From Xanthobacter autotrophicus (GTDB lineage Bacteria; Pseudomonadota; Alphaproteobacteria; Rhizobiales; Xanthobacteraceae): DNA of 35,019 nt. The first letter of the stretch is position 1, and each line of letters opens with the position of its first letter. The DNA lies in NCBI RefSeq assembly GCF_030015065.1, contig NZ_JAIVFN010000041.1, positions 1-35,019 on the forward strand. The letters run 5' to 3'. Below are positions 11,770-35,019 of the stretch, piece by piece. Below the pieces are notes generated by a model. The model was not told the DNA's origin. It saw only the letters and a program-made list of their open reading frames with translations, and searched no databases. The position numbers and the translations under genes are program-made.

Positions 11770-14232
<2,463 letters not shown>

Positions 14233-31727: not shown

Positions 31728-32171
31728 TCACCCGCGTGCCTTCACCAAAGCACGGGTGGTCTCCTGCAGGCGGAAGGCGAGGTCGCGCAGGACGGAACGG
31801 GCGAGGGAAGGGGTCTTGTCGAGAAGATTGAGGAACAGGTCGGTTTCCATGCGCAGCACGCTCATGGCTTCGCCGGCCCGCACGGTGGCGGTGCGCGGCT
31901 CGCCTGTCAGCACGCCCATCTCGCCCACCACCGTGTCGCGGCCGAGCCGCGCGACCTCGTGGCTGGCGCCGCCTGCCGCCACCTCGATCACGGCCGTGCC
32001 TTCGAGCACCACATAGGCCGCATCCGGTGCGTCGCCCTGGTTGAACAGGGCGTCGCCGGCCGCCACGTCCAGCCGGGCGGCGGAAAAGGCGAGCAGCCGG
32101 AGCTGGCTCGGCTCCAGGTCGCGGAACATGGGGATGCGGGCGAGCGTCCTCGCCTCTTCTTCGATGCTCAT
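31728..32171 (-). CDS. Stand-alone cyclic nucleotide-binding domain protein
   Basis: A 147-residue protein consisting of one cNMP-binding (CAP-effector type) domain, about residues 10-125. The phosphate-binding cassette reads GEMGVLTGEPRTATV (83-97), with the Glu and Arg that contact cyclic nucleotide both present. There is no helix-turn-helix, kinase or channel part, so it cannot act as a CRP-like factor by itself and probably signals by contact with a partner. The degenerate ABC protein lies 224 bases upstream on the same strand, a candidate partner by position only. The leader of about 170 bases carries a palindromic promoter (32346-32361). Confidence 0.9.
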   Translation of the reverse strand: MSIEEEARTLARIPMFRDLEPSQLRLLAFSAARLDVAAGDALFNQGDAPDAAYVVLEGTAVIEVAAGGASHEVARLGRDTVVGEMGVLTGEPRTATVRAGEAMSVLRMETDLFLNLLDKTPSLARSVLRDLAFRLQETTRALVKARG

Positions 32172-32394: not shown

Positions 32395-35019
32395 TCATAT
32401 TCCGGCAGAAGCCAGCGCCGCGCCCGCCTCCACGCGCTCTACCTGCCCGTGCGCCAGCACGACCACCTGCGTGAACAGGTCCAGCGGTTCCCCCGCATCG
32501 AGCACGACGAGGGTGGTGCGTCCCGCCCGCCCCGCCAGCACCGATCCGATGAGCTGGTTCTGTTCGGCCGGCGACAGCGGCACCAGCGCATCGTCGATGA
32601 CGAGGATGGTGGGGTCGGCGAGGAGGCAGCGGGCGAGGGTCAGCTTGCCGCGCTCGGCGGCCGACAGGGGCAGGCCGCCTTCCCCCACCGCGACGTCGAG
32701 GCTGAGGCGCTCCACCTGGCCGATCAAAGCGTCCAGGGCGAGGCATTCGCGGACGATCTCGTCCACCACTGCCGCCGCGCCGGCGCGATCGGCGGCGATG
32801 CGGCCGAACAGGAGGTTGTCGCGCACGGTCAGCGCCCGGCAATAGCTGTCGGGCTGGTAGCGGGCGAGGGGGACGCCGGCCACCTCCTTCAGGTGCGCGA
32901 GCTGGGCGCGCCCGGCAAGCGCCCGGTCCTGCCACTCCTCGTCGATGAGGCCGAAGCGGTGGCGCGGCTCGCAATAGCGGCCGGCGATGCGCATGAGCAG
33001 GCCCCGCTCGTCCGGGGTGGGCGCGTCGCCCATGTGCGTGGCGAGCGCCTGTGCCTCGCCCATCTCCTCGGCGCGCAGGAGGCCCTTGGTGTCGATGCCG
33101 GCCAGGTCCTCGGGCCCGCCGGCGAGCTCGGACAGGATGCGCAGGGCGGACCGGCCGAGTTCGGTGATCTCCCCGGCCAGCCCGGCTTTCTCCAGCTGCG
33201 GCAGCAGCGCCGGCTCGGCGAGCACGGAGGCGGCGCCGCGGGTGTCGTTCAGCGGGGTCGCGAACAGGATGTTCTCGGCCAGCGTCATCCAGCGGTTGAA
33301 GGCGGCGAAGCGGAACGGCTCGATGAGCACGCGGGAGGTCTCGGACTGCCGCTGGGCGATGGCATCCGTCACCGCCGCGCGCAGGGAGACGATGCGCTCC
33401 GCCAGCGCCGGCGCCTTGTCCGGGTCGAGCCGGCGTTCGAGGCCGAGCCGCACCACGAGATCGCCCAGCCCGGCCCCCGCCAGGGCCGCGAGCGCCTTCT
33501 GGTCCAGGGTGGCCTCGTCCGCAAGGCCGAGGGCGGCGAGGTCCACCGCCTCGCGCGAGGCGCGCCCCGCCCGGCGCTCCAGCGCGAACAAGAGATTGTC
33601 CCTGAGCGTCCCGGTGATGACGATGGGATCGCCGCCGGCATAGGCCACGTGCCGGCCGATCAGGGCTTCGGGGGCGGCGGCGAGGTCGTGCCCGCCCATG
33701 CGCACCGTGCCGCTGTAGAGCGAGATCGCGCGCCCGCATACGCGGGCGACCGAATGCTTGCCGCCGGCATCCGGCCCCTTGAGCGCGACGGCCGTACCGG
33801 CGGGCACCTCGAAGCTCACCCCGTCGAGGAGGAGGCTGCCGGCCGGGTCCACCACGTCGAGATCGGCCACCTTGATGGAGCCGTCGAAGGCCGGCTCGGG
33901 TCCGGCGGGCGGCTCCTGCGAGCCCTTGGGCCAGACCTCGCGGGTTTCGAGATAATAGCGGGCGAAGTCGTAGCGCACCTGCGCGATCATGCGCTTCTCG
34001 TCCCACTCGATGAGCTCCTTGAGCGGCTCGGGGATCTGGCCGTAGGCCGCCACCACCGCCACCAGCTGGCCGATATTGATGGCGCCCGACAGGGCCAGCC
34101 AGCCGCCGACGAAATAGAACACCAGCGTCGGCACGTCCGACATGAGCAGGTTGAGGATGCGGTCGGTGGCGTTCTGGCGCTTCAGGTCGAGGCTGGCCTC
34201 TGAGACGATGCCGAGGCGGTCGTCCACCGCGCCGCGCTCGAACGGGCTGGTGGCGAAGCCGTGGACCAGGGGCAGGCGGTCGATGCCCGCCATCACGCGC
34301 TTGCCCAGCGCCACCGCCTCGCGCTGGTAGACCTGCAGCTTGCGCGCATTGTCCTTCCGCTGGATACCGAGCAGCAGGTAGTTGAGCGCCAGGATGCCGA
34401 TGGCGAAGCCGCCCAGCACCGCGTTCTGGGTGAAGATGAGCAGCGTCGCCGAGCCGATCAGCCCCACCGACTTGAGCGGCTGGGCGAAGGCCATGCCGGC
34501 GAAGGGCGAGATGGGCCCCACCTCGAACCGCATCATGTTGCCCACTTCCATCGCCTTGCTCTTCATGGGCGCTTCGGGGCGCAGGCGCTGGATCACGTCG
34601 AACAATTGGCGGCGCAGGCCGACGATGATGCGCTCGCCGAGCCGCGCCTTCGCCATCTCGATGAGGCGGGTGATGTGCTGCTGGATCAGCTGCAGGGCGA
34701 ACAGCACCGCCGCGAGGCCTGCCAGCAGCTCGAAAGCGCCGACTTCGATGCCGGGAAAGCGGAACAGCACGAAGCCGCCCAGCGCGTCGGGCAGGCCGAT
34801 GTCGAGTTCGAGCAGGCGCGGGACCGTGCCGCCGATGGCGTCGGTGACGCCGTTGACGATGAGCCGCGGCAGCTCCAGCGAGGCATAGTTGAAGGGCAGG
34901 AGCAGGAGGACGAGGGCGAACAGCTTGATATGGCTTGCCGGCGCCACGCGCCAGAGGTAGCGCAGCACATCTCGCGGCAGTGCGCCGTCGGATGCCGTGC
35001 CCTGTGGGGCCGGGGGGTG
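32395..35019 (-). CDS. Degenerate ABC exporter-like protein with expanded nucleotide-binding region (N-terminus may be outside window)
   Basis: Numbered from a GTG at 34968 it has 857 residues; the frame stays open 17 more codons to the window edge, so the true start may be outside. Residues 1-345 are an ABC type-1 membrane domain. The nucleotide-binding part (364-857) is about twice normal length and every catalytic motif is altered. Walker A reads GPDAGGKH (398-405, His for Ser/Thr), the Q-loop glutamine is Gly, the signature is LSAAE (768-772), Walker B ends in DD not DE (792-793), and the H-loop histidine is missing. The motif T(L/V)xxN(L/I)LF occurs three times (454, 562, 714). It may be a regulatory or scaffold protein rather than a pump. 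Confidence 0.85.
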   Translation of the reverse strand, partial: HPPAPQGTASDGALPRDVLRYLWRVAPASHIKLFALVLLLLPFNYASLELPRLIVNGVTDAIGGTVPRLLELDIGLPDALGGFVLFRFPGIEVGAFELLAGLAAVLFALQLIQQHITRLIEMAKARLGERIIVGLRRQLFDVIQRLRPEAPMKSKAMEVGNMMRFEVGPISPFAGMAFAQPLKSVGLIGSATLLIFTQNAVLGGFAIGILALNYLLLGIQRKDNARKLQVYQREAVALGKRVMAGIDRLPLVHGFATSPFERGAVDDRLGIVSEASLDLKRQNATDRILNLLMSDVPTLVFYFVGGWLALSGAINIGQLVAVVAAYGQIPEPLKELIEWDEKRMIAQVRYDFARYYLETREVWPKGSQEPPAGPEPAFDGSIKVADLDVVDPAGSLLLDGVSFEVPAGTAVALKGPDAGGKHSVARVCGRAISLYSGTVRMGGHDLAAAPEALIGRHVAYAGGDPIVITGTLRDNLLFALERRAGRASREAVDLAALGLADEATLDQKALAALAGAGLGDLVVRLGLERRLDPDKAPALAERIVSLRAAVTDAIAQRQSETSRVLIEPFRFAAFNRWMTLAENILFATPLNDTRGAASVLAEPALLPQLEKAGLAGEITELGRSALRILSELAGGPEDLAGIDTKGLLRAEEMGEAQALATHMGDAPTPDERGLLMRIAGRYCEPRHRFGLIDEEWQDRALAGRAQLAHLKEVAGVPLARYQPDSYCRALTVRDNLLFGRIAADRAGAAAVVDEIVRECLALDALIGQVERLSLDVAVGEGGLPLSAAERGKLTLARCLLADPTILVIDDALVPLSPAEQNQLIGSVLAGRAGRTTLVVLDAGEPLDLFTQVVVLAHGQVERVEAGAALASAGI

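Follow-up and report, generated by a model that had tools for sequence, protein, structure and literature searches.

ATP hydrolysis is the defining activity of ABC exporters, and a protein with the fold of such an exporter in which most of the residues for this reaction are altered raises the question what the fold is used for. Such a protein is encoded at one end of the 35,019-nucleotide stretch of Xanthobacter autotrophicus DNA analysed here (the window; Table 1). The first-pass annotation had proposed that its ABC fold serves another purpose. This turned out to be the better reading, because the gene is under purifying selection, the altered residues are shared within the genus and the degeneracy is family-wide: not one of 136 aligned members keeps all six scored ATPase features.

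The reading frame is cut by the contig end. Judged from the starts of its orthologues, about 13 N-terminal residues are absent from the ORF in the window, and a second contig of the same genome, C123, ends exactly on an ATG that matches the orthologue start. An exact overlap over 15 bases between C123 and the window contig (C41) is absent; from synteny, we infer that the two are adjacent. Pfam ABC_tran matches the window protein with 36.1 bits (cut-off 25) and identifies an ABC-type nucleotide-binding domain. ABC_membrane gives 26.5 bits on this protein alone, below the cut-off of 28, and the exporter transmembrane domain is recognised by the family profile, which aligns with solved exporters over this part and matches a lipid A-core flippase chain with an E value of 3.3e-52 and PCAT chains with about 1e-49. 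Of the 325 scored columns of this domain, 49 are at least 90% conserved. The models of NCBIfam for NHLM/bacteriocin exporters do not apply (the best, NHLM_micro_ABC1, gave 95 bits with 853.3 required), and no Pfam peptidase family, as in the C39 domain of HetC-type proteins, was found at E values up to 1 in the part of the protein that lies within the window, the approximately 13 N-terminal residues being outside. An AlphaFold2 prediction for which the window protein was supplied along with four orthologues from Xanthobacter reached a mean pLDDT of 36 and a pTM of 0.28 and was set aside.

Table 1 Features of the transporter gene and its downstream neighbour (positions in the window; residues of the encoded proteins).
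Feature	Position	Strand	Basis or remark
ABC-exporter-like protein, degenerate ATPase motifs	32395..35019	-	874 codons + stop; N-terminus cut at contig end
Transmembrane domain, residues 20-365	33925..34962	-	family profile match to MsbA/PCAT1-type exporters
Nucleotide-binding domain, first part, residues 378-480	33580..33888	-	Pfam ABC_tran 398-493
Walker A position GPDAGGKH, residues 415-422	33754..33777	-	alignment of relatives
Cassette A, Q-loop segment HVAYAGGDPIVITGTLRDNLLFAL, residues 457-480	33580..33651	-	alignment and hhalign
Insertion, residues 481-715	32875..33579	-	found in 37/37 aligned rows
Cassette B, extra Q-loop-like segment VLIEPFRFAAFNRWMTLAENILFA, residues 564-587	33259..33330	-	hhalign; N583 in 136/136 rows
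EPRHR motif within insertion, residues 684-688	32956..32970	-	H687 in 124/136, R688 in 129/136 rows
Cassette C, Q-loop-like segment LARYQPDSYCRALTVRDNLLFGR, residues 718-740	32800..32868	-	hhalign; N735, G739 in 136/136 rows
Signature position LSAAE, residues 785-789	32653..32667	-	alignment of relatives
Walker B and catalytic position ILVIDD, residues 805-810	32590..32607	-	alignment of relatives
H-loop position without His, residues 836-845	32485..32514	-	alignment of relatives
Single-domain cyclic-nucleotide-binding protein, 147 aa	31728..32171	-	Pfam cNMP_binding 7.1e-19
Phosphate-binding cassette GEMGVLTGEPRTAT, residues 83-96 of 147-aa protein	31884..31925	-	G, E, R conserved

The motif readings given earlier are correct in the window translation. 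Walker A, with the next residue, reads GPDAGGKHS, the Q-loop (YAGGDP) has Gly at the Q-loop position, the signature is LSAAE, the DD at the end of Walker B places Asp (D810) at the position of the catalytic Glu, and the H-loop stretch TTLVVLDAGEP is devoid of His. That all ATPase motifs are degenerate holds for Walker A, the Q-loop, the signature, the catalytic Glu and the H-loop, but not for the Walker B aspartate (D809) and the Walker A lysine (K421), which are kept, only the residue after each being altered. The window protein thus departs from a type IV exporter, in which Walker A and the signature are intact and the catalytic Glu and the H-loop His are present. The family resembles type IV (ABCB/MsbA-like) exporters in its transmembrane domain and, by profile, in its overall ABC fold, but differs in these altered motifs, in an insertion of about 230 residues with two extra Q-loop cassettes and in a linked sensor.

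A sample of 289 genomes from the class Alphaproteobacteria yielded relatives, about 900 amino acids long, in 98. Homologues with canonical motifs, which according to the first-pass annotation would have argued for a local degeneration, are found only as partial rows: 48 of the 136 members retain none of the six ATPase features, 51 retain one, 25 two, 11 three and a single one (L145) four. A GK[ST] Walker A is present in 6 rows, the catalytic Glu in 47 and the H-loop His in 26. At the same time, G306, G437, R547, N583, R704, N735 and G739 are invariant in all 136. These rows exclude L105 and L109, transmembrane-only relatives with neither an ATPase part nor a sensor, as well as L185, a fragment with an in-frame stop codon; L009-L012, copies of genus rows, were omitted from one motif alignment. 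The degeneracy is a property of the family and not a local decay.

Since the degeneracy is graded and the window protein keeps the Walker A lysine and the Walker B aspartate, some members may bind ATP or hydrolyse it slowly. This could amount to a slow ATP-dependent switch that binds ATP without fast hydrolysis, with ATP binding as driver and the sensor as modulator. The lysine and the aspartate are kept not only in the window but also in 64 and 40 of the 136 rows, respectively, the catalytic Glu is kept in the rows counted above, and degenerate sites of other exporters hold ATP for minutes, as stated in a review (PMC7756269). However, the P-loop lysine is missing in 72 rows and the following Ser/Thr in 117, an aromatic residue is found at the putative A-loop column 391 in only one row (at column 389 in 32), and the SGG of the signature is lost in the window protein. 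We therefore regard such a switch as possible but rather unlikely.

Could the gene simply be a decaying exporter that was retained by chance? Its insertion evolves faster (dN/dS 0.14-0.52) than the transmembrane domain (0.10-0.23), and 5 of 14 genomes of the genus are devoid of an orthologue. However, the whole-gene dN/dS in seven pairwise comparisons within Xanthobacter is 0.11-0.30, in line with the earlier claim that the frame is kept by selection; domain by domain, the values span 0.05-0.52, with the insertion highest. The altered motifs are shared across the genus: they are common to the 8 genus rows, except for the residue after KH, which is S in the window and A in the others. Because of the low gene-wide dN/dS and these common changes decay is hardly credible. 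The frames are intact across the class, where seven columns never vary, and a local degeneration or pseudogene was rejected on the basis of dN/dS and the class-wide family.

The nucleotide-binding region is really expanded, as had been noted before: the stretch equivalent to window residues 479-790 comprises 312-346 residues in 37 of 37 rows. By profile comparison, the insertion contains two further copies of the protein's own Q-loop/helix segment, which in this class of exporters is turned towards the coupling helices. Cassettes B and C matched each other in hhalign with a probability of 99.2 (E 1.5e-19), A and B with 95.2 and A and C with 94.2; eight control pairs of segments did not exceed 0.4, and with the columns of C shuffled, 20 comparisons with B did not exceed 4.5.

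A candidate for the input to this domain is the 147-residue protein encoded next to it. Pfam cNMP_binding matches it with 68 bits (cut-off 27.5), and at E values up to 1 Pfam revealed neither a second domain nor the C-terminal DNA-binding HTH domain of Crp/Fnr-type proteins. MloK1 (mll3241) is a relative of this sensor domain in the PDB. In 107 of 138 loci the sensor is the directly downstream gene on the same strand, and in another 16 it is fused to the C-terminus of the transporter. The sensor gene is absent in 11 loci, five of which are explained by a contig end or by truncated or odd members (L016, L070, L105, L109, L194), leaving six without such an explanation (L111, L124, L126, L172, L175, L176). 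Loci with other Xanthobacter ABC genes served for comparison: no cyclic-nucleotide sensor was found in the retrieved flanks of 27 of them, some of which share a gene. In the phosphate-binding cassette G is conserved in 127 of 127 rows, E in 119 and R in 126. A subset of the fused members has a weakened cassette, with D for E in six rows, and in L106, L107, L189 and L193 the usual TAT stretch is missing. Judged by these residues, the nucleotide-binding pocket of the sensor looks intact, while many of the ATPase residues of the transporter are lost.

The neighbourhood also bears on a further suggestion of the first-pass annotation, that the protein pairs with an active partner as one half of a heteromer. 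Halves of heteromeric exporters are usually encoded adjacently. A second ORF that matches both the transmembrane and the ATPase columns lies nearby in only one of 138 loci (L188), and in 14 more the ORFs nearby match the ATPase columns only; a heteromer with an adjacent active half was therefore rejected, as far as the locus neighbourhood goes. The active half might be encoded elsewhere, and heteromeric ABC exporters often have a degenerate nucleotide site (PMC7756269). However, each of the two composite sites would have to contain an intact half, and the changes to Walker A, signature and H-loop all lie in one and the same protein, which makes an inactive half with a distant partner very unlikely.

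Taken together, the degeneracy, the repetition, the linkage or fusion to a sensor with an intact phosphate-binding cassette and a cyclase gene, all seen in the sequences, lead to a model to which we give an even chance: a transporter or channel with the fold of an ABC exporter that is controlled by a second messenger via the sensor, with the nucleotide-binding domain as sensor-docking part. According to this model, members of the family would no longer act as normal ATPases and ATP-driven transport would be lost. The transmembrane domain is retained. The nucleotide-binding domain has grown by two copies of its own Q-loop/helix segment, and the enlarged domain would dock the adjacent or fused cyclic-nucleotide-binding domain and transmit its signal. 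Ligand binding at the sensor, possibly of cAMP, and not ATP hydrolysis would then open, close or switch the transmembrane pathway.

The enzyme that would make the ligand in Xanthobacter is a class III cyclase, encoded directly upstream of the transporter gene in 8 of 8 loci. Within the retrieved flanks a class III cyclase is present in 37 of 141 loci, that is in 11 of 11 from Xanthobacter versus 26 of 130 others (absent from the flanks in 104). A separate background sample of 20 genomes was picked for a nearby cyclase and therefore gives too high a background. Among five Xanthobacter genomes searched, four have just one match to PF00211, which lies next to the transporter gene, so the proposed role would involve nearly the sole class III cyclase. 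The first-pass annotation had overlooked the cyclase and the sensor, and had not recognised the expanded region as repeated copies of the Q-loop segment.

Cyclase, sensor and membrane protein are also the architecture of a Pycsar-like phage defence, with the transporter as membrane effector. In Pycsar too, a class III cyclase acts with cyclic-nucleotide-binding effectors, one type of which has a membrane part, but PycTM and PycTIR are described without an ABC fold, the products are pyrimidine nucleotides and the role is defence (PMC11224242). In PADLOC, PycC models hit the X. autotrophicus cyclase with E values down to 9.5e-28, and the sensor is hit by PycTIR (E 2e-14), weak to moderate matches from a library without cut-offs, but the transporter had no PADLOC match at E values up to 0.01. 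The cyclase consists of CHASE2 and a catalytic domain and resembles adenylate cyclases (CyaB, 3r5g; E 2e-35), and the family occurs in about a third of the class genomes sampled, with glycosyltransferase neighbours and no defence setting. A defence role is thus quite improbable.

Several known proteins resemble the family in part. CFTR is gated by a cAMP-dependent kinase, a channel-like use under cAMP control comparable to the one that may apply to the family, with a cyclic-nucleotide-binding domain as sensor instead of phosphorylation by a kinase. Cyclic-nucleotide-gated channels such as MloK1 likewise couple this domain to a membrane pathway, as proposed here, but their membrane domain is unrelated. 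Degenerate-site exporters including CFTR/ABCC7 have lost catalytic residues and retained the ABC fold, but keep one canonical site (PMC7756269), whereas in our family the changes sit in a protein with a single nucleotide-binding domain. HetC of Nostoc and related cyanobacterial exporters also combine the exporter fold with a cyclic-nucleotide-binding domain, which is required in vivo; in HetC it is N-terminal and accompanied by a C39 peptidase domain, the catalytic Glu is essential, and the sensor binds ppGpp and not cAMP (PMC10986499). Our family differs by its degenerate ATPase and by a sensor that is either a separate protein or C-terminal. The example of HetC indicates that cAMP is not necessarily the ligand of a sensor with this fold. 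It is tempting to go one step further, though we do so tentatively and with some doubt: the family could be an ATP-independent, cyclic-nucleotide-gated channel, flippase or facilitator that arose from an ABC exporter, its nucleotide-binding domain turned into a receiver by repetition of the Q-loop cassette, as an independently evolved functional counterpart of CFTR.

A family found in roughly one of three sampled alphaproteobacterial genomes, with ATPase residues lost and sensor linkage kept, would mean that a different input can be wired to the ABC exporter fold. This raises the testable question whether the ABC coupling interface can transmit a signal other than ATP, and points to a candidate non-transcriptional role for cyclic nucleotides in rhizobia and their relatives. 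The usual label of family genes, "ABC transporter ATP-binding protein", should be corrected. A description of the family was not found in the literature searched, and guessed locus tags of R. johnstonii pRL11 matched no paper. Glycosyltransferase genes neighbour family members in other lineages (in part from a clustering of neighbours that omitted the genus loci L013-L020 and includes shadow ORFs), which suggests that an envelope glycan or glycolipid may be the substrate. The relative in S. meliloti adjoins glycosyltransferases and a "Crp/Fnr" gene, and may be MsbA2 of this organism, which would then be a characterised member of the family.

The ABC-exporter-like ORF of the window carries GPDAGGKHS as Walker A, YAGGDP as Q-loop, LSAAE as signature and ILVIDD as Walker B with the catalytic position, and its H-loop segment (TTLVVLDAGEP) has no histidine. 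All changes listed in the first-pass annotation, in Walker A, Q-loop, signature, catalytic position and H-loop, are present in the ORF; only the wording that all motifs are degenerate is slightly too strong, since the Walker A lysine and the Walker B aspartate are retained. In Pfam, ABC_tran matches with 36.1 bits (cut-off 25) and ABC_membrane is sub-threshold (26.5, cut-off 28). The window is an entire contig and the ORF is short of about 13 N-terminal residues; the matching ATG is the end of contig C123 of the same genome.

Coordinates of the transporter, its partner and two transmembrane-only relatives
Feature	Position	Strand	Remarks
ABC-exporter-like ORF	32395-35019	minus	874 codons
Cyclic-nucleotide-binding domain protein	31728-32171	minus	147 aa; next gene after transporter
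Transmembrane-only relative	L105:7797-9266		Phaeobacter gallaeciensis plasmid, copper-resistance cluster
Transmembrane-only relative	L109:7788-8987		Thalassospira lucentensis plasmid, copper-resistance cluster

One family member was extracted per locus (138 loci), and 136 full-length rows, the window included, were aligned and scored for six features: Walker A K-S/T, Q-loop Gln, signature S-G-G, Walker B Asp, catalytic Glu and H-loop His. None was kept in 48 rows, one in 51, two in 25, three in 11 and four in a single row; no aligned member (0/136) keeps all six. The Walker A Lys is found in 64 rows and Ser/Thr after it in 19, GK[ST] in 6; the column that follows the Lys is most often occupied by Glu (49) or Asp (36). 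Q-loop Gln is present in 18/136, Walker B Asp in 40/136, catalytic Glu in 47/136 and H-loop His in 26/136 rows, and an aromatic residue occupies the column taken as A-loop in 1/136 (neighbouring column, 32/136). The catalytic Glu is found in 43/84 members from other orders of the class, 4/35 from the same order and 0/8 from the genus, and the H-loop His in 26/84, 0/35 and 0/8, respectively. The loss is thus graded, and ATPase degeneration is a trait of the whole family, most advanced in the order of the window. The observation is real and conserved, and it is more interesting than first reported, for a reason that the first-pass annotation missed.

Orthologues with 79-91% identity are present in 9/14 Xanthobacter genomes (own genome counted), and relatives in 61/199 genomes of the order (E<=1e-40) and 98/289 of the class (24-row profile, E<=1e-80). 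In a phylum sample of 398 genomes, whose share from outside the class is not stated, 31 match, every one from the own genome, the same order or the same class. Plasmid records of Rhizobium, Sinorhizobium, Mesorhizobium, Phyllobacterium, Azospirillum, Ruegeria, Sulfitobacter, Methylobacterium and others carry relatives, labelled "ABC transporter ATP-binding protein" or similar. A literature search, with most subscription journals outside its coverage, found nothing on this ABC-exporter-like family. At locus L185 (G419:C15) the member is interrupted by a TAG stop that leaves two separate frames, while the sensor gene still adjoins; this member was treated as a fragment.

The stretch from Q-loop to signature, residues 479-790 of the window's protein, is 312-346 residues long across 37 rows, and its extra part repeats the Q-loop segment, with the motif form YDPxxYNxxAxLxDNLLFG. 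We call the Q-loop segment and its two extra copies cassettes A, B and C. In hhalign (family columns), B (536-660) matched C (690-800) with a probability of 99.2 (E 1.5e-19), and A (430-545) matched B with 95.2 and C with 94.2; as controls, eight pairings with segments of the transmembrane or N-terminal nucleotide-binding part stayed at <=0.4, and when the columns of C were shuffled (20 times) the match to B did not exceed 4.5. With phmmer, residues 397-482 and 723-840 align to P-glycoprotein in stretches that overlap each other, near the first Q-loop of that protein. Seven columns (G306, G437, R547, N583, R704, N735, G739) are invariant in all 136 rows, and five of them belong to the insertion or to one of the repeated cassettes; selection thus persists on the nucleotide-binding region but no longer on the catalytic residues. 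ATP-driven transport has presumably been lost, and we class the family as a divergent form of ABC exporter, not as a functional one.

The cyclic-nucleotide-binding protein (sensor), in which Pfam found no HTH domain, follows the transporter as its next gene, in the same orientation, at 107/138 loci and is fused to the transporter C terminus in 16. In four loci it is placed otherwise (two with a 7-nt overlap, one 622 nt off, one in a different frame and upstream of where the member ends); in 11/138 none was seen, six of these showing no visible reason for its absence. No sensor-type gene was found near other ABC genes of the genus (0/27 loci, several sharing a gene; flanks ~1.5 kb). Among 127 aligned sensors, collected with slightly wider limits (110 next-gene rows, 16 fused rows and that of the window), the phosphate-binding cassette has Gly in 127, Glu in 119 (Asp in 6) and Arg in 126. 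On a FastTree tree of the transmembrane domain, in which long branches are flagged, the fusion label needs four changes, gains or losses. In the fused members L107, L106, L108, L187, L188, L189 and L193 the P-loop can hardly be recognised, and the sensor cassette is altered too (D for E, or without the TAT stretch).

The gene directly upstream of the transporter encodes a class III cyclase in 8/8 loci of the genus and in 3/3 named loci examined. At the X. autotrophicus locus L010 it is a CHASE2 plus Guanylate_cyc gene that ends 60 bp ahead of the transporter ATG and resembles the CyaB catalytic domain (E 2e-35). Genomes G003, G006, G008 and G010 have one PF00211 match each, adjoining the transporter; the window's own genome has two, one at the end of C123. 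This CHASE2-type gene (12137-12688 of 12988 bases; L246) is followed by the contig end exactly at the transporter start codon, an assembly gap splitting the operon. Among the 130 other loci, 26 have a cyclase inside the fetched flanks, where chance predicts about 3 (229 matches per ~90.6 Mb, added up, and ~9 kb of flank per locus; the density is biased upward). Genome G065 has two cyclases in total and two family members, each with one nearby.

The sequences themselves show degenerate ATPase motifs, repeated cassettes, a linked or fused sensor with a conserved cassette, and purifying selection. The contrast between the conserved sensor pocket and the abandoned ATPase residues, the fusions, and the cyclase standing in the same row of genes are best explained if a cyclic nucleotide controls the transporter and the nucleotide-binding domain acts as receiver. 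The sensor would dock to this domain and gate the transporter, with a cyclic nucleotide as the probable ligand. Against such control count the graded retention of ATPase residues, the six loci lacking a sensor, the absence of a nearby cyclase from most loci and the fact that some fused rows have a weakened sensor cassette. The nearest published case found, HetC, is an exporter with a cyclic-nucleotide-binding domain; according to excerpts of PMC10986499, its sensor binds ppGpp, a precedent against a cyclic-nucleotide ligand, and its catalytic Glu is essential. Degenerate sites in exporters are treated in a review (PMC7756269, in excerpt). Cyclase and sensor are common to the family and Pycsar (PMC11224242, in excerpt; PADLOC matches).

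The transporter is preceded by three or four genes for glycosyltransferases in records of R. johnstonii, Mesorhizobium, Phyllobacterium, S. meliloti and Sulfitobacter, and neighbour clusters with GT4 and GT28-C type representatives cover 86 and 78 loci (shadow ORFs included, Xanthobacter loci left out). These neighbours suggest a putative envelope role, with a glycan or glycolipid as candidate substrate. On a plasmid of Mesorhizobium sp. WSM1497 (L072), glycosyltransferases, transporter, sensor and an MBL-fold hydrolase are clustered with a polysaccharide deacetylase, DUF3095 and two cyclase genes. The transmembrane-only relatives L105 and L109 have neither nucleotide-binding domain nor sensor; multicopper oxidase and copper-binding proteins surround them, and partial matches with similar frames of ~400 aa occur in G317:C4, G804:C8 and G807:C7.
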